From: Paramacrobiotus metropolitanus
Lineage: Eukaryota; Tardigrada; Eutardigrada; Parachela; Macrobiotidae
Assembly (NCBI RefSeq): GCF_019649055.1
Contig: NW_026570230.1
Location: forward strand, 930,001 to 994,000
DNA: 64,000 bases
Direction: 5' to 3'
In this document: piece after piece, positions 1 through 24,687 of the stretch
Layout: each line of letters starts with the position of its first letter
Numbering within the stretch: the first letter of the stretch is position 1
Translations under genes and position numbers: made by a program
The notes under the pieces: model-generated
Database searches by the model: none
What the model was told of the DNA's origin: nothing
The model's input: the letters and a program-made list of their open reading frames with translations, nothing else

Positions 1-156
1 AGAACGGAGAGTGCCCTTTAATCCCACAAACGGATACTTTGTCCCAAAATCCAAATTCAATACCAAGCCCGTTCGTTCCTCGGCGATATGTAAGAAAGCG
101 TTTGATCAACTTGTTCTTTTTAAGAATATTTTTTCGTTTAATCTTGCCGGTTGCAG

Positions 157-1045
157 ACGAAATGTTACCGGACAAAGGACGAACCATGTTTTATGCGAGG
201 TGACTCTTATAATGAAGACTGTTTCGAGCGACTGCGTTACAATTTACGAGATCCATCTAAGCGAGAAGTTGTATGCTGTCCTGGAGCGTGTGGGGTAATT
301 AACAATATTAATTTTTCACTTGTTTGTGAATCTCCAGTAAGTAAATGGAAATAATCACTTATACATAAATTAACTTATTGTTACATAAATTAATATTCGA
401 AGATAATCAATAAGATTTATAAAAGCAGATTTATCAGTAGCGTAATGGTGATAATACATGTAGATGTACACACGCGAAATTCAGCTTGCGTTCAATTTCC
501 AGTGGGTGTTCAAGCATCCTTGGGTGTCCGGTCAAATCCTCTACCCCGGCGCACGTAAAACCTATCAGTCCGTTTACGGCTACGGATCGGTCCTGCAGAC
601 CCCGCCGCCCGGTGCTCCAGCAGGGCAGTTGCCCGTAGAAAGCCCGAGCAGCAGTCTGTATCCGGTACTACGTGCCGACTGCATCGTCAGTGCCCCCTAC
701 TCGCGCAGTGCCGCATCCGCCCAGAATCCACTGGCTGACATTGCCGCCATTCCCCACACGTGCCCGTCGCTGGCGCTCAATAACCCATCGGTCACCTCGC
801 CCATTTGCGTGCAGAAACTATACGCTTCCGGCACACAAACCCTCTTTGAGCCTGAGACATATTGCACCGTGCACTGCTGTAATGGAGATTATTGTAACGG
901 GATCGGCAGTGATTATGTTGGTCAAGGAAATCCGTACTATTCCAACGGAAGCAACGATAAGACGAAGATTTTGGCGCTAATTCCTGTAGTGATGATTGCG
1001 CTGAACGCAGTTATTCGCGCCCCTTTAGTTCAACAAATGTATTAA
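157..1045 (+). CDS. Ly6/three-finger domain protein, GPI-anchored, 3' part
   Basis: Two exons are visible. The first (157-294, after a TTGCAG acceptor and before GTAATT) encodes a cysteine-rich stretch starting TKCYRTKDEPC and ending CCPGACG. The second runs to the stop at 1043-1045; its acceptor is either before 464 or before 503, and both keep the frame. It contains CCNGDYCN, the C-terminal signature of Ly6/uPAR three-finger domains, then an Asn/Ser-rich linker and a hydrophobic tail (ILALIPVVMIALNAVI) typical of a GPI-attachment signal. The product is probably an extracellular, lipid-anchored surface protein. The segment between the cysteine blocks is Pro/Ser-rich and longer than in a minimal Ly6 fold. 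The start codon and signal peptide are not found and probably lie left of the window. Family assignment is good; the ligand or role is unknown. Confidence 0.6.
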
Positions 1046-1103
1046 TTTTGATTAAAATCGTGACTGTACAATACGAAATGCTAACCAAAACTGTTTAGTG
1101 CTT

Positions 1104-1109
1104 AATAAA
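1104..1109 (+). terminator. Poly(A) signal of the Ly6-like gene
   Basis: AATAAA lies 59 bases after the Ly6-like stop codon, in AT-rich sequence. Confidence 0.5.
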
Positions 1110-1201
1110 AAAGCGACGTTTCTGCGCAATTTCGTTAAGACAATAAGTAACTTCGTGTCTGTACTGTAGCCGCTAAGCGATTGATACGGAATCATGTACG
1201 C

Positions 1202-1207
1202 TTTATT
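1202..1207 (-). terminator. Poly(A) signal of the KANSL1 gene (minus strand)
   Basis: TTTATT on the plus strand reads AATAAA on the minus strand, about 330 bases past the KANSL1 stop. With the signal at 1104 it places two convergent 3' ends about 95 bases apart. Confidence 0.4.
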
Positions 1208-1534
1208 AGTAAAAAATAATCCCAAATAAAGAACAAAATTTCATCAAGATTCCGTATAATGTGGAAACGGAGCGGATGAATATCATACAAAAAAACGGTG
1301 ACCCCACACACAACAACAAAGAGAAATCTCAACCCAAAACGCAAGAGAGATAAAGGAAAAACCCAATTCCGATCTCGCTGCAATTTTACACTCCCCCCAG
1401 TTTGCAGATCGTAACTCTATACTGTACAACATCCCTTATACGCAGCACACACCTGTCCGATGCCCTTTCGAACCACCATCACAAGGTACAAAAAACCGTC
1501 CCACCCCCTGCAACAACACGCCCACTGCCCCTTC

Positions 1535-4500
1535 TCAGCCGTCCTCGTCGTCCGGTGACGCCCGGAACGTACTGCGCCGTGTGCGGACGGGCCGTGCCGG
1601 ACGCTGGGCATTCATCGCCGCGATCTCCTCCGGCGTCTTCCGGGGCCGTTTCACCGTGGCCGTTTGCACTTTGACCTCCATGGGAGGCGGCTGCTCCGCA
1701 CTGGCCATCACCACGACTCCACCGCCCTCCTCGCCGTCCGGCACCTTCTTCTCCCCTTTTACTTTCTTCCGCACATCATTCCGCCCAAAATACCGGTTCA
1801 CCTTGCTGGATTTTTTCGACACCTTCTTCCCGTGCAACAGGCTCTTCTTCCTCCGCGTGCTCTTCACCGGCGGCGGACGGGCGGCGGTGCCCTCGGGGGG
1901 CGGATTGCGCTTTCTGGTCTGCTTCTCCGGAACGGTGAAGCGGGTGCGCTCCTCCACCTCGCATTTGATATGGCGCTCAGCGAAGGCCGCATCGCTCAGG
2001 TCCTCGTCCTCGCAGGAATTATCCACCTCGACATCGGTCGGCAGCAGCGGCGGCTGGATGGTGTCCAGTTTCGGCAGGGACTGATCGCCGGCTTCCCCCG
2101 CGGCATCCACAACTTCCGCCCCATGGGGGACCAGGGGCACTGTTTTGAGATCACGGAATTTGGGAACAATGATTTCCTTGTACTGGATCTTCTCGATTTT
2201 GGACGGGGCGGTCATACCGTACGGTATCACAAAGCTCGTCAGGTCCGAGCGGGCCTCACGACGACGGCCGGCCGGATGGTTCTTGCCGGTTTCCGATTTC
2301 GAAGTGGTGCGGTTCATTTGACCTGTAAATCATGGAAACATGAGTTATCAATACTCCATAATCAGCTAACATTATATTTTGTAAACCTGAATGCATTTTT
2401 GAAAAAATTATTTGACAGTTTCAGATTTCTATTCGCATATGCTTTGTATTATTATTTTTTCAAGCTCCGAAGAGGTTCATTAATCCAAACAGAAGTGCAT
2501 TAACGATGTATTTTTCTCAAACAGCTGTTTTCTAACAGGCGGATGCGTGGCATGACATTGAGCCGTAAACTCCGTCATACACAAGCCACTTAACATTCTC
2601 ACACTACACAGCGCGGCAGAAACGTGTTTCCTGATCAAAGGTTCAAGCGATTGACAGTGCCCTACAGCCGGGGCGGCTAAACCATCGTCAAACAAGGCAC
2701 CAAAACAAATAGTAACGATGGTAAGTTATGCGCGCACTCAATGTCATTTTTACTGCTCAGCTGGCAGAAAAGCAGCTCACTACGGTGAAAATAAAACAGT
2801 TCAAAGTTCTCTGAATTGCCCAGCGCAATTACTTACGTTTCGTGGCGTTCTTCGATGTAACAACATTCATATCCGTGGAGCCCACACTGGTCGAACGTGT
2901 TAGATGGCTAACGGCCGACGATACCGTTGTATCCGAAGACACCGATGAATGCCGTCGTTTTCGATCTAATTAAACAGCCATAATCAATCCAGATTTGTCA
3001 CAGTGACAACAAAGCAGTTGAGTAGTCCTCGAGCCAACTCTACACTTACTTTTTGTGGAAATAGTTCGACTTCGATGTGCCTTCTGCTTCTTGTCGCTGA
3101 CGGTCTTACTGTTCTTCGGTCGCTTCTGCGTATCGCGGTTGTTTTCCAGCGCACCGAAACGCAGTGCCCGTAATCGCTCGCGCTCCGCCCGAAGTCGCTC
3201 CTCCTGTTTTCGCAAAACATGCGCCGCTTCCGCTTCGGTTTTGATTAAATCCAACGCGCGCTGTCGACGCATCGGCCTACAACAATTATCACACAATAAA
3301 GCGAATACTCATAAGACAAATATTTTCCTACTCAAGCAAGCTGAAACGTTCATAAATTAATTACCATTTACTCCATTTTAATTACAACTTTACGAAGTCT
3401 ATTTCTTTTGAAGATAATCTAAAACTGTCTTTTAAATTGACAAAAATCATTACTGACAGACTTACCGTGGCTTAAACGGTCCTCTAGAGCTAATAAACAT
3501 AGCGGGATCAAAATCCAACGACACACCGGATAATTCTGCATCTAACGCTCGAATGGAGGGTTGTGAAAGACGAGGATGGTATCCCGGATCAACTAGCGCC
3601 ATTGCTTCACTTCGTGGTGTCCGCAGCAGATTTGTATGAGATGAAAAGGTTGGCATGGGTAACAAGCCCATACAAATAGCACAGCTAACGGGACCTACAA
3701 GGTCCGGCAGTAAGCAGCGCGTTGAACAATCGCAGTGGCGAGGTTTTTCATCCATTTGATATCGTTTTGGAGGGTACGCTATAAAAACAACGAAAATATT
3801 AGTTGTTTAATTTCAAAGAAATTTTATAACAGTGATACAAAATACAGCAAAGGAAATTACAAAAGCAGTAAACTTTCTTCCTGTGACTTACCATCCATAT
3901 CAACAAACACCCGCTTCTTGAACGCCATTAACGGCCTGGCCCGCGCACATCCCCTTGCTGACGACACCACCGCTTCCGACAGCTCTCGGATCTGCTCTCC
4001 TTCCGCCTCTCCCATTTCCTCATCATCCGACCCATCCTCAATGATCCTCCCCACCGCTAATCTCTCCTTCCACATGGTGGCCTCGTACGTTTCAAAGGGA
4101 ATATTCAGTCCCGTACTGGGCAAGGCCACCTTCATCTTGCGACGAAATAGCCCCGCCGGTCCGGGATGCAGTGACTGTCCGGCATCGCTCTTGGCCGTGG
4201 GCAGCCGTAATACCGTCGAACAATTGGCCGTCTTCGCCACGCTGACGACCTCCCGATCATCCCAGGGCCGGGGTGTCGGGCCCTTGTGCGCTAGGAATGC
4301 GGTTTTCAATAATGGTTTGGAGTCATCCGCGGTACCGCCACCGAATGTCACGATGCCCTGTCGCTGCTGGATACGCTGAAGGAGATTGCCAGTAACCTAC
4401 ACATACAAAGTATTAGCACAATCATGCCAACAACCCTCGATCAATTTTAGCAAAAGCCTCTTTTTAATCGACTGTACCTGGTAGGCATATTCGGCTCGAG

Positions 4501-7008
4501 CTAATTGACGGTGAGCATAGCTGTATCGCGACGCAATGCCCTGCCGCGTCGTGGCGTACCGATACAGTGCCCGCTGATCACTGTAATAAAAGATTCATCA
4601 CATAAAAAAAATCAATCAGCTGATATTCCTCGTCAGCAGCACATCACATACACCGTAAAAAGAAACGATCTCTATTCCGTCAAATTAGACGATATATCCT
4701 CTAGCACACACTCAATTTCCTCTAGACACAGACAGGTAGGGAACAAAGAAAATCAATAATCTATGATTATCCATTACTAATTCCCCATTTCCCCCAGTGC
4801 ACGTACTGCACCGAATGTGGCGCTCATCATTAGCTCACAAATATCCCCATAACGGCCTGTAAATACCAAATAGGAAAAGATTCGATCGATGTGCACAGCA
4901 ACCCTTCGCAGCAATTCCCGTATGCCGTAAAAGCGCACAGTGGGAAGCATGAACCCTGTCGCATTGATCAAAGTCATAGCGCCTTTCAGACCAGCTACAG
5001 CCGTCGGATCCGGAATAACATATGGTACTTAATAAGTGGGCCAATTCTCCGTTTACATGGATCTCATTATTGACACAGGGGCTGTCCCGACTGATCCCGT
5101 CAATAAACAGCTTTTTACCAGGTACAAGTTAATCGAAAAAACCACCAACAGAAAAAGCGTTCAAACGGCTGCCTATCTATAACAAAATTCAATAATTATG
5201 ACTAAACATTTTACTGAAAAAATCCTGTCTCCAAAAAATTACACCCGCACCAAAATTATATCTACATGTCGCAGATGTCACTTTTTGTAGTCGTATAACC
5301 TTCAGATTTTCAACACCAAACAATTTTTTTTAAAAAAAAGTTCAAACCTTACTCACGGTTTCTAACTAGTTCCGTATTCACAAATCTTCAAAGAAATTTT
5401 GTTACAAACTCAGCACCGTTATAAGACGGATAAACATGTCTCAGCAAATTCGGCAAAACATTAGGTTGATAACCTATCTCGGTATTATGCAGATAAAAGA
5501 GCGAGCGCAGCAGAAATTACGCATTAATAAGGAAGCAAATAACTCCGCCACACAACCATCGATAAGAATACGGCCTAATCCGAATAATGCAGCTGATTAC
5601 GCTAACTCGTATCTAGGTATCTACCGGAATATAACGAACCAACCCGGCTAAAAATGCCTCCAAAAACGCTGATGCAATACAAACAAATTAAATTAAAAGC
5701 GGGAGAATGTCAAAGGTCAGACTGAAGGACCTCATCAGCACATTATACCCTGATGACCCGATAGCACAACAACGTGACCATCCCTAATCCGACGCTAATC
5801 GAAGTGCCTACAACCATAATCACAACCCCCCACTTACACTGGAATGAGTCGGTCCTGATCGAACTTCTTTTGAAACAGTTCCTCCTCGGCCTCATCAGCA
5901 CTCTCACCGCCGCTGGAGCTATCCGTCACCCAGGCATCGTCGTTAATCCGATCCACCGCGCGCTGAAATCCCTGTGCCACACCGGAGAACATTTTGGCGC
6001 GATCAACCGACTGCGTCCGTGCCAGCTTCAGCAGATACGCCGGGCGCTGCTGCTTCTCAAACGCCTCACGCCGCTGATTACTCTCCACGCGTTTAACAAA
6101 CTCCACCAGCTGGGACGGGGTTTTGTTCTTCATGTCATCACGCGACACCGATAGGACACCGAATAAATCCTGCATAGACTGCTGTTCCGTGCTGCGGGAG
6201 GAAATCACCATCGATGAACTGCTGGCGCCGTCCTCATTGCGTCCCTTCCGCTTCGGCGACGAGAACGCCGATTCCGTGCGAAACGATTCATCGCCGAGGA
6301 AGGAGAAGGACAGAGACGATTTCGTATCGGGTTTGTAACTCTCGCGATTGAGGAAATCATGAAAGGACGACGTCCCGGTCTTCAGCGTGTCATCGCCCGC
6401 ACGATTAACCATAAACGTCCCTAATCGCGAGAGACGGTGCTTCAGGGAGTGCAGATCCTCGGGATGGTGTTTACCCAGAACTCCTTTCAAGCAGACGAAC
6501 ATCTTCTTAACGGCGTCCGTGCCCGGTTCGCGGCGAGGTTTTTTCCGGGCTGGCGAACCCACGGTGGCCTCGTTGGTTGTTCCCGCGTGGACGCCCGCCG
6601 TGGTGGATGGTTTGGATGCCGTGGCTGTCACTCTGGATTTTTTATGGGCATTTTTCCGACTCTTGGACCGGACGACAGCCGTCGATGGGGTCAAAGGCTG
6701 GATCTTCTTGCTAGCCTTTTTGGGCACAGCTGGCACGGCGAAAACAGCGGGCTCGTCCAGATTCTTCATAATACCCGACGAGGAGGGCAACATGGGGTCA
6801 TTTAGGTCGTTGGTTGGTGATTTATCCGGGAAGTGTGGTGTTGGAGATGTGGGAGGAGCGATTTTTTCTTGGACGCCATTATCAAGTCGACGCCTGTTTA
6901 TCGAACATTTCTCCAGTTTTCTTCCCAATAGCCGAGGCAATGTGGTATAGTTAAGTAAAGGAATATTTTCTTAACTTACCACGATGGAGATTCCGATGAA
7001 GCCACCAT
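1535..7008 (-). CDS. KANSL1: KANSL1 homologue (NSL histone acetyltransferase complex subunit 1)
   Basis: Eight exons join in phase: 7008-6980, 6893-5838, 4580-4478, 4396-3892, 3778-3466, 3276-3050, 2965-2837, 2322-1535. They total 1050 codons, about 1049 residues against about 1105 in human KANSL1. KANSL1 is the scaffold of the NSL complex and binds the MOF/KAT8 acetyltransferase through its C-terminal PEHE domain. Here that domain starts near residue 813 (VIPYGMTAPSKIEKIQYKEI) and continues with LSDAAFAERHIKCEVEERTR, matching the family pattern. An acidic serine patch (DSSSGGESADEAEEE) lies near residue 345. The coiled segment ASRYSYAHRQLARAEYAYQ (around 385) and the ALVDPGYHPRLS block near residue 630 also match KANSL1. 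A Cys cluster (CDCSTRC...CAIC, about 577-596) could bind zinc. The N-terminal third is low-complexity and basic, so it is nuclear by inference. The ATG at 7008 is the first in-frame start giving a clean GT-AG join. Confidence 0.85.
4581..5837 (-). other. Large KANSL1 intron, no other gene seen
   Basis: This 1.26 kb intron separates the long N-terminal exon from the coiled-coil exon. Donor GTAAGT and acceptor TTACAG are clear. It is AT-rich; the short open frames in it show no family signature. Confidence 0.5.
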
Positions 7009-10000
7009 TAGAAGATTGATAAAAACACATTAGAAAGCCAATTGGGAAAAGGAACAGAATGGGTAAAAATTATATCAAGGGTTTTCGATTTCTCAACTGT
7101 GTCAGTTGAACTGCGTATGCTGCAAATAGCAAATGGTGCACACTGGTGCAAGGCTGCCTGGCCTGTGCGTTCCACGAAACCTTCGCCTTTCATGTACAAA
7201 CACTAGCCGAGAGAGCGACAGAGAGAAAGCCGGTTCACCCGGTTCAAACGGAAGTAACACGGCGCAGTTCAGCCGATTCACAGACATCTTGCCTGCGCTT
7301 TGTCACGCGCAGGGTATAAAAACATCAGTGGTGGCAGCACTGTCGGGCCTGTACCGGCACAGCCGCACAATGCGCTTAAAGCGCACACGAATGATATCAT
7401 CGATCGATTGTGGGCAGCCATCAATGGGCCCATATGAAATGGGCAGCCCATCCTCTAACTTTGTTGTGGCAAAGTGACGATTATCAGCCGTAGTCCGTGA
7501 TGAAACAACTGCCGCAAGATTTCGATTTTCTGGCGAATGATGCAAACATTCGCCGCCGCGTGTTATAATCCTCATAACAAACATCGTAAGGAGTTCTTCC
7601 GAAATTGGCATGATCAGTGATAATAATTTATAGTGCTCCATTGCAAACTCTGCAGGGAAATATCTGGATTATGATAAATTCCGTTTTGTTTTGATAAGGC
7701 ACTCGTACAGCGCGTGACGGATCTGAAAAATTAAAAAAACGATCGCTACAGTAAAGAACACACTGCGATTAAAACAAAATATAAAACTCAATAAGAAATT
7801 GTCCCTAAACTGTTCCCAAAGTGAATGCCGAAATCCCCAAATACAGTGCTTGAGGATTTATCGGGAGACAGACGGGAGTTAACTTCAATAACTATTTGCT
7901 AGAACATTCCTGTCTGTTAGTTTTAAGCTCGCGAACAAGAGTTAAACAAAGCAAAGCTTATAAACTGGGTGCAATATGCTGATGCAGAGCGTTGCTAGAG
8001 GGCCGAAAATACCATACAGAAACACCAAGCGAAAAAAAGGAAATTTTAGTATAATCTAATAATCACGTGAAATGAGAATATTGCAGTTGCAAATGTTTTA
8101 TACGAGTATAAAATGATCCGGTATTCACTACTGCAAAATTACAATCTTCTGTGTCATGGAAATACTTATCGACTTATCGTCAATTTTAAGCCGATTGTTT
8201 GAAATTTCTGGAACATATATGTACGTTACTACGTTGCCAGAATTTTAAAGTCAGAAAACACCTTAACTGAGAAACTTGTCACTGAACTGCACGAAGTGTT
8301 TGGATTTTCTGAAGTGGCACAAATAAGTACAAAAAGCCTGGATTATCGGTATTGTACTAACAGAAAATCTTGCATGGACACTATCATGGTCATGCGAAGT
8401 TGCAAACCAGTACAGTACTTATTCCAAACCGACAAATTACGGACAGCTTGCTGATATTTTTAGATATTGACATGAAAAATAACGCACAATATAGATACCA
8501 TCTGAAATATGAGCTCGTACTGTAATTTAAAAAAATTTTGGAATTACTGCGCCCTCATAATATCTACTGTCGCCCCACTCTGTTTCAGCAGCGCTTCTGC
8601 ACTGTCGATTGTGGTTTGTTAAATTTCGATCCAAATTTCTGGATCGAAATCCTGGTTGTAATTATAACCATAACCACAAAGAAAAGTTTCTTCAGCTGAC
8701 CATTACTCGCGGTCGAGGTATGGATGCCGAAAGTCGATTCGGAAGTTGAAAGCAACCCAATTTTTCTCCAGCAACTACCCTACGAAGCTAAATTAGCAAA
8801 GAAATCGAAAATAACAATTTCCTCGTGTTGATTCGTTCAAGTGGTCAATGCTGTAGTTACTGTATAAAGGATATCATCATCGGGATACCGGTATGTTACT
8901 TTTATCCTGTGATAAGAGAGCCCATTTATCCTGTTGACCTACTATTTATATTACTAGGACCATCATTGTATTTGTGGTACTTACTACCAAACGGTGCTAT
9001 GTTATGGAAGTGCGGGACTGTTAGCGCTACCGGGTATCCATGAATTTCTTACTGTTAGATTCGTTTGGTCAGTTCATAATAATTATTCTCATGACATGCG
9101 ACAATCTGTAATAATAATATAGAAATTTAATGTCTATACTACTAGCAGCGGCAAGACCTCTCAAATTTTTGGCTGACCATATAAAGTTTTACCTAAACGA
9201 AAACCGCGTGCTGTTTTCTGCGTCCCAGCAGGTGGTTAGCAACTTATTACTGCTAGCGCAATATGATGGAGAATTTACAGAAACGACAAAAATCTACGTT
9301 ATTAATCTCGTAAACCTCATAGATTATAGGGATTAGGGATATTGGTAAGGTACTCCAGGTGAACGTTTAACATCTACTCCGTAGCTACGGATATCACAGA
9401 GCTATCTGTATTTGAAGTTTAAAACCACATTATATTATATGGTTATGTACAAACTACAATACAACCTACATATGATATCAGCAAATCTAAATATTAATAT
9501 TTCTATGCACTAAAATATTGTTTACTGCGTTTACTAATTGTTTACTGCGGTTAACCTTCTCGACCACGGTCCACGGACGATAAACAGTCATAAACTTACG
9601 CGATGTCGCCACAAGGAATGGGGATAACAGTAACTGCTTACAGTAAATACTCGAGTAACAAGTTACAGTATAACTGTATAAACAAGACTTTGACATCTCA
9701 AGATTCCCACGTTTGAGGAATCTCAGGAAGATTCAAGATTCTCGCGGCTGCAGCCGAGCACAATAAATTGGGGACAGCGAGCAGAACACAATTCGGCAGA
9801 ACACCAGAATCATTGCCCAGCGGTTCTCGTTTAGACAAGGCCGAACCGGGAGCCCCACCACCACTCTATCTCTGTAGGGACTATAACACTGCACGCATGT
9901 TACGCCGACTGTGCGGTACCCTTGGGCGGATGACGGGAGTAAATGTATACAGAGAAACCGGGCACTGCGACAGAATTCTTTTCGCATAATTATTACTATT

Positions 10001-15900: not shown

Positions 15901-17488
15901 GTACAAGTAGTTGCTTATGGATTAGCAATATTTCCGATATTGGTAAACCAAATCGTATATCATGCTTTTTATTTTATTGCAGTACATGGTCATCCTGTTC
16001 CTTCTGTTTATCGTCCAGTTCAGTGTGGCTTGCGCGTGCTTAGCAGTCGGAGAGCAACAAATATACACTCTCATGAAGGAAGGATGGAAGATGTCCAAAA
16101 ACTCAACGCGGGATTCCGTAGAGGGGTATTACGAATGTTGTGCTTTCGAAAAAGCACCGTCGGACTGGAATAGAATTAAAGATAACCACACGGAAGAGGA
16201 AGTGCTTTACTCACGGCGCGGCTGTAGCAAGGTACAACGATGTTGTGTAATTGTAGTTGCGGAAGACGAAAGTAAGAATAGCGCTCCATGCAAGAGTCGT
16301 TATCGATTGCCGGTATTTACTTACGTTGGTACTCGCGAATTCGAAATACGAGCGGTGATTTTTCAGCTGAAAAGAGACAGAAAGCTGTACGTTAAATAGG
16401 ACTGAGTGCTGTAATTGTGGGACTGCTTGGGATTGGGAATTTGGGATGGTATTCCAGGAGGGTTACTGTTACGTGGATCAGCATTTATTGTTTAGCTAGA
16501 TAAGAGGTGGTTGGTGAATAAGTTGTCGAAGTATCTTTCTCCTTGATTATGTCTTCGAGTATCGATCTCGGCTAAGTTAAGAGGTACTGACGATTGAACT
16601 TTTTATCGCTCCATAAATATTCGTATGCTTCCGGTGGGGGTTAGGTTATCCTGCTGTGCACTGCTGAATCTCATTGCTCATAGATTTATTCGGGCAATAG
16701 CCAATTAAGATAACAACAAGCTTGCGCTGATAGAGACTAATTAAAAATTTCCAAATTCACACATTGAAAAAACAACCAACATTGCTCATTGATCATTAAG
16801 CTTTGAAGTTGAATTTTTTGTCAGATAGATAGCTGTCCGAGTGAAGGAATAGTTAACATTTTAGGCAGAATCCGCAAGTAAAAATGTATAATTGAGTTTT
16901 CCACTTACGTTGTTGTCGCGAAATCTACTGGAGACGGATAGTTAAATGCAGACGGTTAATCCTTTCAAAAGAATAACTTAACTGAAACTTGTTCTCTTGC
17001 AGTTGCATTGTTGTTCCGGGAAAGAATCCATGTGCACGGAACAAACGGAGTGCGAATTTTGCTACACTAGGTTACAATCAATCGTTCAGCCGTCTCTAAG
17101 GCTGTGTGGAGGAATTGGATTGTTTTTCAGTTTTACTGAGGTAAGCGCCGCACCTGCATGTAGCGTATATGTAGCCAAGCATCTTTGACCGGCATTAAAC
17201 GGGAAAAAATTAAAACTTCTGAATGAGCAAGTGAATCTGCTTAAAATATCCTGTACCAGCAACACATTGTTTTAACTGCTCGTTGATGGAAGTGATTGAT
17301 TCTAGTCGGTTTCCTGATTTACAGTAATCGTATTTAAATCAGTAGCTTAAGCAAACGATTAGCGGGGACAGACAGTTTCATATTTATTTCTGATTTTTCT
17401 GCAGCTGATGGGTGTTTTATTAACCATACGCTACCGCAACCAGCGCAATCCTTTCATCAATCCGTCTGATCTTGTATATTTCAAATAG
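12901..17488 (+). CDS. TSPAN31: Tetraspanin-31/13-like protein
   Basis: Five exons join in phase 0 throughout: 12901-12972, 13828-13995, 15983-16231, 17003-17140 and last exon 17405-17488, giving about 236 residues (vertebrate TSPAN31 is about 210). Tetraspanins are four-pass membrane organisers. Seen here: an N-terminal GGFGCSRNALIALNVLYI, matching the TSPAN13/31 start; membrane spans 1 and 2 in exon 2; the loop MKHHQVMLFF; span 3 in exon 3 (ILFLLFIVQFSVACACL); a large extracellular loop with YYECCAF and HCC; and span 4 starting GGIGLFFSFTE. The family CCG motif is CCA here. The tail RYRNQRNPFINPSD matches the TSPAN31 tail pattern. A second last exon at 17678-17752 can replace the one used in this model. 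The introns of 0.8-2 kb are longer than elsewhere in the window. Confidence 0.85.
14486..14536. repeat. Three tandem copies of a 17-base unit in a tetraspanin intron
   Basis: GAAAAGTTTTCGGATCC, GAAAAGTTTTCGAATCT and GAAAAGTTTTCGGATTA follow each other directly. Each unit contains the near-palindrome GAAAAGTTTTC. Confidence 0.7.
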
Positions 17489-19247: not shown

Positions 19248-19455
19248 CGACCACGATGGGTCCTGAACCCACTTACTTCTGAAGTCAGACACCGTAAACA
19301 AATACTGAAAATAGGATAACATCAAAAAAGCTTCGAATTACAGGCGAAAAAACTAGAAAAATCGACCACGATGGGAATTGAACCCACATACTTCTGATTC
19401 GAAGTCAGACGCCTTAAAAGAACATTATTTAATCACTAAAAACGGTATCAAGGAA
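19248..19455 (-). pseudogene. Two outlying truncated tRNA-Arg copies
   Basis: The copy at 19248 is diverged (GGGTCCTGAACCC in place of GGGAATTGAACCC, and the anticodon loop shortened). The copy at 19363 matches the main array unit through its tRNA part and the following AAAGAACATTATTTAATCAC spacer. They lie 1.2 kb left of the main array and are separated from it by unrelated sequence, which suggests an insertion or that the array was once larger. Confidence 0.7.
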
Positions 19456-20607
19456 ATAGATCTATATTATGATCTGCCGCCCCGTGGAACATGGCTGGAA
19501 AAAACCACCAAACAAATTAAAAAACCGACATCACCATTAAACTTAGCATGTTCCAAAAGGGTTGCACATGCATTTTGTTTTCAAAAATATCGGCCCTGAG
19601 ACCATCCTCGGATGCCGGTACCGGTACAGACATGGGTTCAAGGTGACCTTGAAGGACACTTACAAAAACTGTTGCGTGGAGCAATTAATACATACAGATA
19701 GTGTATTAAAAAACTGAATTTTTTCCGGATTAACTTAAAACAATATTTCAGCTTGTGACCTTTCTATAAAATCAAGCGAAGCAATTCACTGGCCTAGCTC
19801 CAAAAATTTTTTAGCAAACAAAACGAACAACTGGAGTACATAAAATAACTGTACGTATGATGATACCAAACTTATGTTTTTACATGCACGGGAGATTTCG
19901 CTTTCACGCGCTCTCATACACTGCAAATTTTAAAACGCATAAATTACAAAAACATAAATTCTGAAATTCATTTTAAAATTTAAAAAAGAACTGTGGTTAA
20001 AAACGACCTTGATCCTCGCATTCGTTTACATGCAAATTTGGGTGAAGAGCGGTTCCTAATGAGGCTTGGTACACCTAAATGATGAGGTACCGGTACCGGG
20101 TACGCGAAAGCAAGAGTTCCCGTGAATTCATACGAACGTAGCGCCTTATGCCGGCATAGTTTGACACGAACAGACAGTATATTACCATAAAGTTCGACTA
20201 CCAACTGCTCGGGCAGTGTTTGCCCCGGGTACGTCCAAGGCCGGCCCTTGACCAGACCAACCGAAAGAACGGAAATTACGGGAACATTGTAAACATAGAA
20301 CATTGTTCCTAGAAATTAAGACCGTATGAGAGCGGAACCAGTACCCATATGCGTGCCCGCCGGTCAGTGTTGTAATAGTGTACTTGAGCTGTCAAATGAA
20401 CTGAAACGCGCAAAGAGTCACACTTTCCACTGACCAAACCTACACAATAACAGGAACCGCACGTTACCGCCGGTGAAGTCTGCTGTTGAGTGAACAGAAG
20501 CAGGATCCCTATTGGCGCTAGTGGCTGGGTATAAGCGGAGCTATACTGCTCTAGTCCAAGGTCACGCCTCCCTTTGATCGTTACTATACTGATCGGAACA
20601 TGCTAAT
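19456..20607. other. Unrelated sequence splitting the tRNA-fragment repeats
   Basis: About 1.15 kb without repeat units or a recognisable gene. The minus-strand open frame at 19980-20303 has no known motif. Its boundaries with repeat sequence on both sides make it a candidate insertion. Confidence 0.35.
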
Positions 20608-22777
20608 TAAATTCGCTAGTCAGACGCCTTAAAAGAACATTATTTAATCACTAAAAACAGTATAATATTTTAAAAAGCTTCAAATACCGACAAAAAAATG
20701 GAAAAATCGACCACGATCGGAATTGAACCCACATACTTCTGATTCGAAGTCAGACGCCTTAAAAGAACAGTATTTAATCACTAAAAACAGTATAATATTT
20801 TAAAAAGCTTCAAATACCGACAAAAGATGGAAAAATCGACCACGATGGGAATTGAACCCACATACTTCTGATTCGAAGTCAGACGCCTTAAAAGAACATT
20901 ATTTAATCACTAAAAACAGTATAATATTTTAAAAAGCTTCAAATACCGACAAAAAAATGGAAAAATCGACCACGATGGGAATTGAACCCACATACTTCTG
21001 ATTCGAAGTCAGACGCCTTAAAAGAACATTATTTAATCACTAAAAACAGTATAATATTTTAAAAAGCTTCAAATACCGACAAAAGATGGAAAAATCGACC
21101 ACGATGGGAATTGAACCCACATACTTCTGATTCGAAGTCAGACGCCTTAAAAGAACATTATTTAATCACTAAAAACAGTATAATATTTTAAAAAGCTTCA
21201 AATACCGACAAAAAAATGGAAAAATCGACCACGATGGGAATTGAACCCACATACTTCTGATTCGAAGTCAGACGCCTTAAAAGAACAGTATTTAATCACT
21301 AAAAACAGTATAATATTTTAAAAAGCTTCAAATACCGACAAAAAAATGGAAAAATCGACCACGATGGGAATTGAACCCACATACTTCTGATTCGAAGTCA
21401 GACGCCTTAAAAGAACATTATTTAATCACTAAAAACAGTATAATATTTTAAAAAGCTTCAAATACCGACAAAAAAATGGAAAAATCGACCACGATGGGAA
21501 TTGAACCCACATACTTCTGATTCGAAGTCAGACGCCTTAAAAGAACATTATTTAATCACTAAAAACAGTATAATATTTTAAAAAGCTTCAAATACCGACA
21601 AAAAAATGGAAAAATCGACCACGATGGGAATTGAACCCACATACTTCTGATTCGAAGTCAGACGCCTTAAAAGAACATTATTTAATCACTAAAAACAGTA
21701 TAATATTTTAAAAAGCTTCAAATACCGACAAAAAAATGGAAAAATCGACCACGATGGAATTGAACCCACATACTTCTGATTCGAAGTCAGACGCCTTAAA
21801 AGAACATTATTTAATCACTAAAAACAGTATAATATTTTAAAAGCTTCAAATACCGACAAAAAATGGAAAAATCGACCACGATGGAATTGAACCCACATAC
21901 TTCTGATTCGAAGTCAGACGCCTTAAAAGAACATTATTTAATCACTAAAAACAGTATAATATTTTAAAAAGCTTCAAATACCGACAAAAAAATGGAAAAT
22001 CGACCACGATGGGAATTGAACCCACATACTTCTGATTCGGAAGTCAGACGCCTTAAAAGAACAGTATTTAATCACTAAAAACAGTATAATATTTTAAAAA
22101 GCTTCAAATACCGACAAAAAAATGGAAAAATCGACCACGATGGAATTGAACCCACATACTTCTGATTCGAAGTCAGACGCCTTAAAAGAACATTATTTAA
22201 TCACTAAAAACAGTATAATATTTTAAAAGCTTCAAATACCGACAAAAAAATGGAAAAATCGACCACGATGGGAATTGAACCCACATACTTCTGATTCGAA
22301 GTCAGACGCCTTAAAAGAACAGTATTTAATCACTAAAAACAGTATAATATTTTAAAAGCTTCAAATACCGACAAAAAATGGAAAAATCGACCACGATGGG
22401 AATTGAACCCACATACTTCTGATTCGAAGTCAGACGCCTTAAAAGAACATTATTTAATCACTAAAAACAGTATAATATTTTAAAAAGCTTCAAATACCGA
22501 CAAAAAAATGGAAAAATCGACCACGATGGGAATTGAACCCACATACTTCTGATTCGAAGTCAGACGCCTTAAAAGAACATTATTTAATCACTAAAAACAG
22601 TATAATATTTTAAAAAGCTTCAAATACCGACAAAAAAATGGAAAAATCGACCACGATGGGAATTGAACCCACATACTTCTGATTCGAAGTCAGACGCCTT
22701 AAAAGAACATTATTTAATCACTAAAAACAGTATAATATTTTAAAAAGCTTCAAATACCGACAAAAAAATGGAAAAAT
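20608..22777 (-). repeat. Tandem array of 5'-truncated tRNA-Arg copies, about 130 bp unit
   Basis: A partial unit at 20608 is followed by sixteen full units beginning (at CGACCACGAT) at 20708, 20837, 20967, 21096, 21226, 21356, 21486, 21616, 21746, 21873, 22001, 22132, 22260, 22388, 22518 and 22648. The intact tRNA gene at 22778 is the seventeenth. Read on the minus strand, each unit holds tRNA nucleotides 19-73 (anticodon arm, T arm, 3' acceptor strand), then a T run, then a spacer of about 75 bases. The 5' acceptor strand and most of the D arm, including the A box, are missing. Units are nearly identical; differences are single-base losses (GATGGAATT at 21746, 21873, 22132), an inserted G in the unit at 22001, and ATT/AGT or AAAAAA/AAAGA spacer variants. 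The homogeneity points to recent expansion by unequal exchange. Confidence 0.9.
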
Positions 22778-22850
22778 CGACCACGATGGGAATTGAACCC
22801 ACATACTTCTGATTCGAAGTCAGACGCCTTAACCATTAGGCCACGCGGCC
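22778..22850 (-). tRNA. trnR(ucg): tRNA-Arg, anticodon UCG
   Basis: The 73-base minus-strand sequence folds as a full cloverleaf. The acceptor stem GGCCGCG pairs with CGUGGUC and the discriminator is G. The D stem is GCCU/AGGC, the anticodon stem UCUGA/UCAGA around loop CUUCGAA, the variable loop AGUAU, and the T stem GUGGG/CCCAU around UUCAAUU. The anticodon UCG reads CGA. The A box and B box (GGTTCAATTCC) are both present, and a T run right after the discriminator serves as the Pol III terminator. CCA is not encoded, as usual in eukaryotes. It is the only complete copy and sits at the right end of the truncated-copy array, so it is the likely source of it. Confidence 0.93.
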
Positions 22851-23045
22851 ACAGACTTGTAGTAATCAAAATATACGGCAAGGAAGTGGTCGTTTTATCT
22901 CTTGTTGACTGTGCGTCAATAAAAGTCTGTACCTACTCATACTCTACAAGCTTATTCTGTCAAAATATATTTTAAAATATATTTATACGTCAAATTTGTT
23001 TAATTACGTCTGAGATAAATTTTAACCATCAGCAAAATGAATTTT

Positions 23046-23095
23046 CGCTTAACCATTAGGCCATGCGGCCACAGACTTCCAGTGATCAAAATATA
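23046..23095 (-). pseudogene. 5'-half tRNA-Arg fragment with 5' flank, copy 1
   Basis: CTTAACCATTAGGCCATGCGGCC matches tRNA positions 1-22 with one change. It continues into ACAGACTT...ATCAAAATATA, the same 5' flank as the intact gene at 22841-22874. The 3' half is absent, the mirror image of the array units. Confidence 0.75.
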
Positions 23096-23245
23096 AGGTT
23101 ACAAGTTGGTGCCATCACCTTAACCGCACGTTGATTGTACCCCTGATACTTGGAATACGAGTACATAACAGATCAAAAATAGTTAATCACAGATTCACAG
23201 CAGCAAAATTTCAGTTAACTATTAATGCATTTAAAATCTCATCTA

Positions 23246-23300
23246 GCCTTAACCGTTAGGTCACGTACACGGCCATCAGCCTTGTAGCTGTCAAAATATA
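23246..23300 (-). pseudogene. 5'-half tRNA-Arg fragment with 5' flank, copy 2
   Basis: GCCTTAACCGTTAGGTCACG and the following flank (CTTGTAGCTGTCAAAATATA) are a more diverged copy of the tRNA 5' half and upstream region. Its left end joins unrelated sequence and its right end abuts a MITE-like element. Confidence 0.65.
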
Positions 23301-23536
23301 GGGGGAATTTAACTGCTGAGGCCAGCACTCCCTGTACTTGATGCCGTCACCTGCCTAGTGGAGCCACAGTGTGACCACTGTGACGTTACGGCAATACATT
23401 CGGTTAAATCGGGCTCAGTACATATTACATAAGCAATTAATCGTAAGCACCATGTTTAGCCACAACGTAAAACTCCAGCCGGGTGACGGCAGCAAGTACA
23501 GGGAGTGCTGGCCTCAGCAGTTGAACACCCCCTATA
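23299..23536. mobile_element. MITE-like element with about 50 bp terminal inverted repeats
   Basis: The left end (23301-23353: GGGGGAATTTAACTGCTGAGG, then CCAGCACTCCCTGTACTTG) is repeated in reverse complement at the right end (about 23481-23532), with small differences. The element is about 235 bp, has no coding capacity, and is flanked by TATA on both sides, a possible target duplication. Short non-autonomous inverted-repeat elements of this size are mobilised by a transposase elsewhere; the family is not identified. Confidence 0.75.
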
Positions 23537-24687
23537 TACGGGAACGAAGTGAGTGGTATGATCGTTTTATCTCCTGTTGACTGTGCGTCAACACTACTTT
23601 GAAAATATCTGTATACATATAAATATCCGTCAGATTTATTTAGGTTTAATTATGTCCCCTGAGCTTTATTAAAGAGAAATTTCAGGGAAAACTTTTCCGT
23701 AAACCTTAAGTTCCTAACTTCCTAACACAAAAAATCAGTTACCGGCAAAATATTGTTAAAATTCCTTTATTTTAGAGAATTTCGCGCTAATTTTTGAATG
23801 CAATACTGTACGGTAATACGGAGCAGCGAGTTTTAAAGTAGTAAAAACGAAGTATAAGTAATACACAGGAAACTAAAATAATTATTGTTAGTTCATCCAT
23901 GGTTGTTTCACCGGGCAAAGCAGCTGCACGTCGCACGATCAGCAGACCCAGCACCGACACATCGTGATCCGTACAAGTACGACTGCGTTTTTCTCGGTTT
24001 ATTGCTCGCTTTTTCCAGTTTTACTAGTTCTCGGTTTTTCTCGGTTTGATTGTAAGATTTCCGCTTGCATTGCAAGCTGGTGCTTACTATGAAATGCATC
24101 ATAACATGCACGTACATTACCTGTACCTTTTAATAATATAGATATAAATATACTGTACGATAATATCTATTAACGTTATACAATATTACAGTACTGGCAT
24201 GCGTACAATGCCTTATCTTAATGCTTTCGAACGTAATAACCGTTTTCGTTCTCTTACAACAAAACCGGAAGCTGTGGATCACATCCCTTTTGGCAGACGG
24301 TGCAAATACATACGCATTTGTGCCTGCTTCCGGTGGAAGGCCGAATATATGTACATACCGGCATCAACATATACTCTTATGTTGCCATAATACTCTCACT
24401 CGTGCTCTTGGCTTTCGGATATCACGTTCATCATACAACCTTTCCCTGAACGTATTAATATTATTTTTGTTTCCTTTTTTCGCTGCATCAGCGGAATGCT
24501 ATATCAAGTCCTTCGATGAACAATTATTTGTGCATCAATCAGTTTTGTGCGACTTGGGAGTTTATGTACGAGTATTAGTCACATACTTCTCGCTAGGCTA
24601 TATAAATTAAGTGCAAGCTCTGAATGCTTTCCTCCTTCGGAAAACAATGTGTGAATTGAATCACCATTTGTTCCAGTAGAAGTAGTG
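23537..24687. other. Intergenic upstream of the first guanylate cyclase
   Basis: The word GTTTTATCTCCTGTTGACTG near 23563 repeats, with one change, the sequence near 22891, so the tRNA 5' flank was duplicated as a longer block. The plus-strand open frame 24221-24610 contains a hydrophobic run (LSLNVLILFLFPFFAAS) but no recognised domain; I do not call it a gene. Confidence 0.4.

Follow-up and report, generated by a model that had tools for sequence, protein, structure and literature searches.

A row of truncated tRNA-Arg(UCG) units beside the intact gene: a likely early-stage local satellite in the tardigrade Paramacrobiotus metropolitanus

Organization of the locus

The window, i.e., the whole stretch of 64 kb that was analysed, corresponds to C10:930001-994000 of the P. 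metropolitanus assembly, and searches for further copies covered the genome of 169.8 Mb in 533 contigs. The assembly is very probably the one obtained by nanopore sequencing, with 45x long reads and a read N50 of around 17 kb (PMC8277472, PMC11191345). Trehalose-phosphate synthase genes, which have been reported for this species, occur in it. Within the window, one intact tRNA gene is flanked by partial copies of itself on both sides, as follows (window coordinates):

19248-19297, minus strand: the most ancient 3'-half copy that can still be recognised, matching at 44 of 55 positions (80%) and lacking 5 nt in the anticodon region
19298-19446, minus strand: older part of the 3'-half array, with diverged trailer, tRNA half, GCCTTAA/AAGAACA junction and the start of the next trailer
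19447-20619, plus strand: member of a dispersed repeat family interrupting the array, with a full 5' end and a 3' end cut short where it meets the array
20618-20632, minus strand: partial unit of 15 nt that bounds the main array on the left, its join to the truncated dispersed repeat being ambiguous by around 2 nt
20633-22702, minus strand: 16 tandem truncated units of 127-130 bp (Tandem Repeats Finder, unit alignment, box scan)
22703-22777, minus strand: trailer belonging to the intact gene; it equals the consensus spacer of the array, which is seen only there
22778-22850, minus strand: intact tRNA-Arg(UCG) gene, which is both the terminal unit and the parent of the array (ARAGORN, Rfam, box scan)
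22828-23047, minus strand: 5' part of the intact gene (nt 1-23) and its leader, the parental unit of the mirror duplication
23048-23245, minus strand: second copy of the tRNA 5' end and leader, starting at CTTAA, 90% identical over its first 51 nt
23246-23740, minus strand: third and most decayed copy of the tRNA 5' end and leader, interrupted by an inverted-repeat element; the right boundary of this copy is approximate
23296-23537, no strand assigned: MITE-like inverted-repeat element inside the third 5'-half unit, with 61-nt arms that are 90% complementary

ARAGORN finds one intact tRNA-Arg(TCG) gene here, on the minus strand, which scores 69.6 bits against the Rfam tRNA model (22778-22850). 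In the box scan, its A box TGGCCTAATGG is situated at 22833-22843 and its B box GGTTCAATTCC at 22789-22799, and runs of five and seven T follow immediately downstream. Two exact tRNA-Arg(UCG) genes were found in the whole genome, this one and another on contig C2.

The young row of truncated units

The array lies downstream (3') of the intact gene. Read on the minus strand, each truncated unit consists of tRNA nt 19-73 (55 nt), followed by a fixed AT-rich trailer of 75 nt. Tandem Repeats Finder reports it as the top array in the window (20618-22832, period 130, 17.1 copies, 98% matches, score 4295), and splitting at GCCTTAA delimits the partial unit, the sixteen truncated units and the intact gene's own unit (22703-22832). 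The sequence-only reading of this DNA had already described sixteen truncated units, each with tRNA nt 19-73, ending in an intact one, which is confirmed by Tandem Repeats Finder and the unit alignment; its start of the array at 20608, however, lies around 10 bases too far to the left, as these bases belong to the unrelated dispersed repeat.

All units break at the same base, as that reading had claimed: the single junction GCCTTAA/AAGAACA is present in 17 of 17 full units. The break (22832/22833) coincides exactly with the 3' edge of the A box, such that every truncated unit has kept the B box and lost the A box. The earlier designation of the units as half a tRNA gene is loose, since the cut lies directly 3' of the A box (nt 18/19), and not at the anticodon, where biochemical tRNA halves are produced. 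All 18 B-box matches within the 64 kb are situated in the array, in its old units or in the intact gene, and each unit contains four T runs of 5-7. Among the matches listed, the array units score 29.2-29.4 bits against the Rfam tRNA model.

The 17 units differ at nine alignment columns only, several of which are homopolymer indels. A T/G variant at column 8 is common to the non-adjacent units u02, u06, u12 and u14, and an A/G variant at column 65 to u02 and u04. Such scattered sharing is what exchange among the copies would produce; it counts for the origin proposed below, as do the single junction and the small number of variants. A search of the genome (170 Mb) for the 75-nt spacer, as the sequence-only reading had suggested, found it at this array only, and the 3'-half unit likewise has no copy elsewhere in the genome; this confinement to the locus counts for a local duplication.

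The older left edge and the interrupting repeat

Beyond the left edge of the young row, two older copies are recognisable. The unit at 19298-19446 has a trailer that is 68% identical to the consensus, whereas its tRNA half matches at 55 of 55 positions. The stretch from around 19354 to 19446 is nearly identical to the young units and comprises the tRNA half, the same junction and the beginning of the next spacer. Selection on the B-box half of this unit was considered in view of its 55/55 matches against 68% in its own spacer, but is not accepted as proven, because the identical stretch runs on into the next spacer as far as 19446, in agreement with the boundary of an exchange. An additional decayed unit to the left of 19248 was rejected: GATTCGAAGT is found at the right distance from CTTAA, but the similarity of the whole stretch does not rise above shuffles.

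Old and young parts are separated by a repeat (19447-20619) whose family begins with (T)ATCAAGGAAATAGATC and has 50 matching stretches in the genome (269 candidates at first look). Its ends were checked against ten other copies; the 5' end agrees with eight of them, whereas the 3' end is shorter than in two others. A Helitron-like identity of this 1.17-kb insert (TC start, CTAG end) is unsupported, other copies running past CTAG. The young and the old segments are probably parts of one former array that was split by insertion plus deletion.

Copies of the 5' part on the other side of the gene

On the opposite side of the gene, its 5' part and leader are repeated twice. The 5'-half units begin at CTTAA, the five bases that also terminate the 3'-half units. 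The intact gene thus stands where two rows meet, one made of its B-box parts and the other of its A-box parts. The second copy is recognisable over around 51-92 nt, the similarity of its remaining leader not being above shuffles. A dispersed-repeat fragment (23154-23218), of which around a dozen copies were found, replaces part of this leader. With the MITE-like element set aside, the leader of the third copy has a similarity score of 109.7, whereas 500 shuffles reach 67.2 at most. The element itself (23296-23537) has at least 35 genomic copies at around 76-79% identity.

The second gene on contig C2 and other tRNA loci

The only other identical tRNA gene is situated at C2:2226008-2226080, where there is no array. 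It has around 130 bp of leader in common with the gene of the window, but not the trailer. At C2:2242095-2242361, 16 kb beyond this gene, a 25-nt tRNA piece is followed by leader and by another 25-nt tRNA piece; this stretch is 75% identical to the window sequence that comprises the first 5' unit and the beginning of the second, and its leader-tRNA junction is homologous to that in the window, from which it follows that the duplication of the 5' half predates the separation of both loci. Another 9 kb further, at C2:2251544, a single tRNA piece is found, the right flank of which is 89% identical to that at C2:2242095-2242361 over 111 nt, with around 9 nt of the left flank in common. With A for the tRNA piece, L for the leader, and X and Y for the flanks, the two loci read X-A-L-A-Y and X-A-Y, a pair of states that recombination between short tRNA repeats would be expected to produce, in either order.

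At 24 further tRNA loci, which hold 26 genes, no partial copy of the respective gene was found within around 1.5 kb. The situation on C10 is thus exceptional in this genome, and the process belongs to the history of the C10 gene. One of these control loci (C37:710500-714700) contains two complete tRNA-Lys(UUU) genes around 1.2 kb apart, in opposite orientation and 97% identical.

Proposed origin

Taking these observations together, we regard it as likely that the array is an early-stage local satellite that arose from a tRNA gene through a tandem duplication with an intragenic breakpoint and subsequent unequal exchange. The founding duplication would have copied the 3' part of the tRNA together with 75 nt of trailer, its right breakpoint being intragenic and situated at CTTAA, immediately beyond the A box. 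When one end of a tandem duplication falls within a gene, a single event would yield a truncated copy next to an intact one; as the intact copy remains, the gene would not be lost, and neither a separate truncation nor selection is needed. Unequal exchange or gene conversion among the copies, a step that we infer, may then have expanded the row and homogenised it to sixteen units, while the older units at the left edge would have decayed and later been cut off by a transposable element. The copies of the 5' end and leader would stem from a separate, earlier tandem duplication on the opposite side of the gene, the breakpoint of which nearly coincides with that of the 3'-half array. As part of the same explanation, the truncated units are likely to be pseudogenes devoid of an A box.

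That a single truncated duplicate was amplified beside its parent, as the sequence-only reading had it, agrees with the one junction seen throughout the unit alignment. Its wording that the array had grown from one intact gene holds for amplification next to the parent but is too simple, as homogenisation has erased the direction of growth. It had recognised the young row but missed the decayed units on the left (19248-19446), the mirror copies of the 5' part and the duplication on C2.

Concerning the initial event, short homology (CTTAA or CCTTAA) or microhomology may have been involved, or else a fork may have broken at the transcribed tRNA gene. As the 3'-half array no longer preserves its founding junction, microhomology cannot be demonstrated there; in the 5'-half array, an apparent CCTTAA match is present in the flank after the third unit, within a weak alignment.

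Alternative explanations

Apart from this origin, the array could be a working element: its sixteen B boxes without A boxes might recruit TFIIIC in the manner of extra-TFIIIC sites and act as an insulator, or might increase the occupancy of TFIIIC at the intact gene; alternatively, the array might provide repeated Pol III terminators downstream of this gene. The retention of the intact gene's B box by all truncated units, the clustering of all 18 B-box matches of the window at this locus and the four T runs of each unit are compatible with such a role, and clusters of extra-TFIIIC sites are known in Caenorhabditis elegans (PMC6950938). However, the C. elegans sites have both boxes, the low divergence of the units is accounted for by their youth, and the conserved stretch of the old unit extends beyond the tRNA half into the spacer, which points to exchange rather than to selection on the B box. 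We therefore consider a working element unlikely. Somewhat more doubtful still is the elaborated version, in which the gene is seen as split between a row of A boxes on its 5' side and a row of B boxes on its 3' side, the sixteen B boxes forming a putative TFIIIC landing platform that would insulate or boost the intact gene. The array is most likely functionless.

The coincidence of both rows at one place could also reflect a site-specific nuclease or transposase that cuts the gene at TTAA or CTTAA, both arrays being repair scars of repeated cutting. While 3'- and 5'-half units meet at the same CTTAA, which both have kept, and the related 5'-half pieces on C2 begin at CTTAA as well, the chance of two breakpoints falling within 6 nt in a 73-nt gene is around 0.17, so the coincidence is suggestive only and does not establish a true breakpoint hot spot. 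Furthermore, the 5'-half junctions on C2 and C10 are homologous and hence not independent, none of the 24 other tRNA loci shows such copies, and no element was found inserted at the cut site; repeated cutting is accordingly very improbable.

Equally improbable is an assembly artefact, with only one or two units present in reality. Although several of the differences among units are homopolymer indels, which are typical of long-read errors, other variants occur in scattered units, and diverged units with the same junction are found 1.2 kb away, outside the array. At a read N50 of around 17 kb, single reads should span the 2.2 kb, the exact copy number being uncertain.

Least probable of all, and ruled out by the spacer being unique to the locus, is a tRNA-derived SINE or dispersed satellite lying beside the tRNA gene by chance: tRNA-derived SINEs and SINE-derived satellites do exist (PMC10702118), but the units retain the 3' part of the tRNA, whereas a SINE would have the 5' promoter head, and they run on into the trailer of the intact gene itself, and the search that found neither unit nor spacer elsewhere in the genome finds plenty of other dispersed repeats.

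Comparison with known tandem repeats

Like a satellite, the array consists of near-identical units arranged head to tail (Tandem Repeats Finder, unit alignment); satellites form large arrays, usually at many loci, whereas here a single locus of 2.2 kb with sixteen units is found, such that it is better called a local minisatellite-like array. It is not an array of functional tRNA genes, which would consist of complete units with A and B boxes; its units reach 29 bits versus 69.6 bits in the intact gene.

Satellites are known whose units derive from a portion of a SINE and whose terminal unit is longer and extends to the end of the parent (PMC10702118). Those of squamate reptiles (sSat) resemble the present array in the tandem repetition of a portion of a Pol III-type unit, in the longer terminal unit, here represented by the intact gene, and in the homogeneous middle part. 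Their parents, however, are SINEs dispersed over many loci (PMC10702118), whereas the present array has one functional tRNA gene at a single locus as its parent, without dispersed copies in the genome that would constitute a SINE family, and the unit comprises the tRNA 3' part and its natural trailer. The tRNA-containing repeats of amphibians (OAX satellite I, PolIII/TAN, Rana/polIII) also consist of tandem units with tRNA-like sequence, but form large families, and a join to an intact parent is not shown there (PMC10702118).

In the human tRNA macrosatellite at 1q23.3, tandem tRNA-containing units are around 98% identical and variable in number, yet they measure 7.3 kb and contain whole tRNA genes and a CTCF site (PMC4041453). 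The tRNA gene arrays of Entamoeba are homogeneous tandem arrays too, but with complete genes in each unit and making up more than 10% of the genome (PMC2652664). Like extra-TFIIIC (ETC) clusters, the array is densely packed with tRNA-like elements of Pol III promoters that do not belong to a working gene, as the box scan finds for its B-box motifs; the C. elegans ETC sites, however, have both boxes and are defined by occupancy (PMC6950938), whereas here B boxes alone are present and known from sequence.

No description of an array made of part of a functional tRNA gene and still joined to that gene was found in the literature searched, outside of which most subscription journals lie, so this silence is weak evidence of novelty. 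The array is a neat local case of satellite birth and not a new kind of element. Its value lies in showing a satellite caught at birth, with parent gene, young row, decayed edge, mirror duplication and the C2 locus with and without the duplication all present. If the breakpoint were recurrent, tRNA genes would be starting places of tandem repeats, at one exact base. Concerning annotation, tRNA searches with a low cut-off count the pseudo-units of this locus as genes.

Other features of the window

The G+C content amounts to 46-49% at positions 1-8000 of the window, compared with around 40% in most of the remainder. A weak tetraspanin match is found at 15947-16399, and an exon-like open frame at 47884-48438 matches angiotensin-converting enzyme (Peptidase_M2, E 4e-19).
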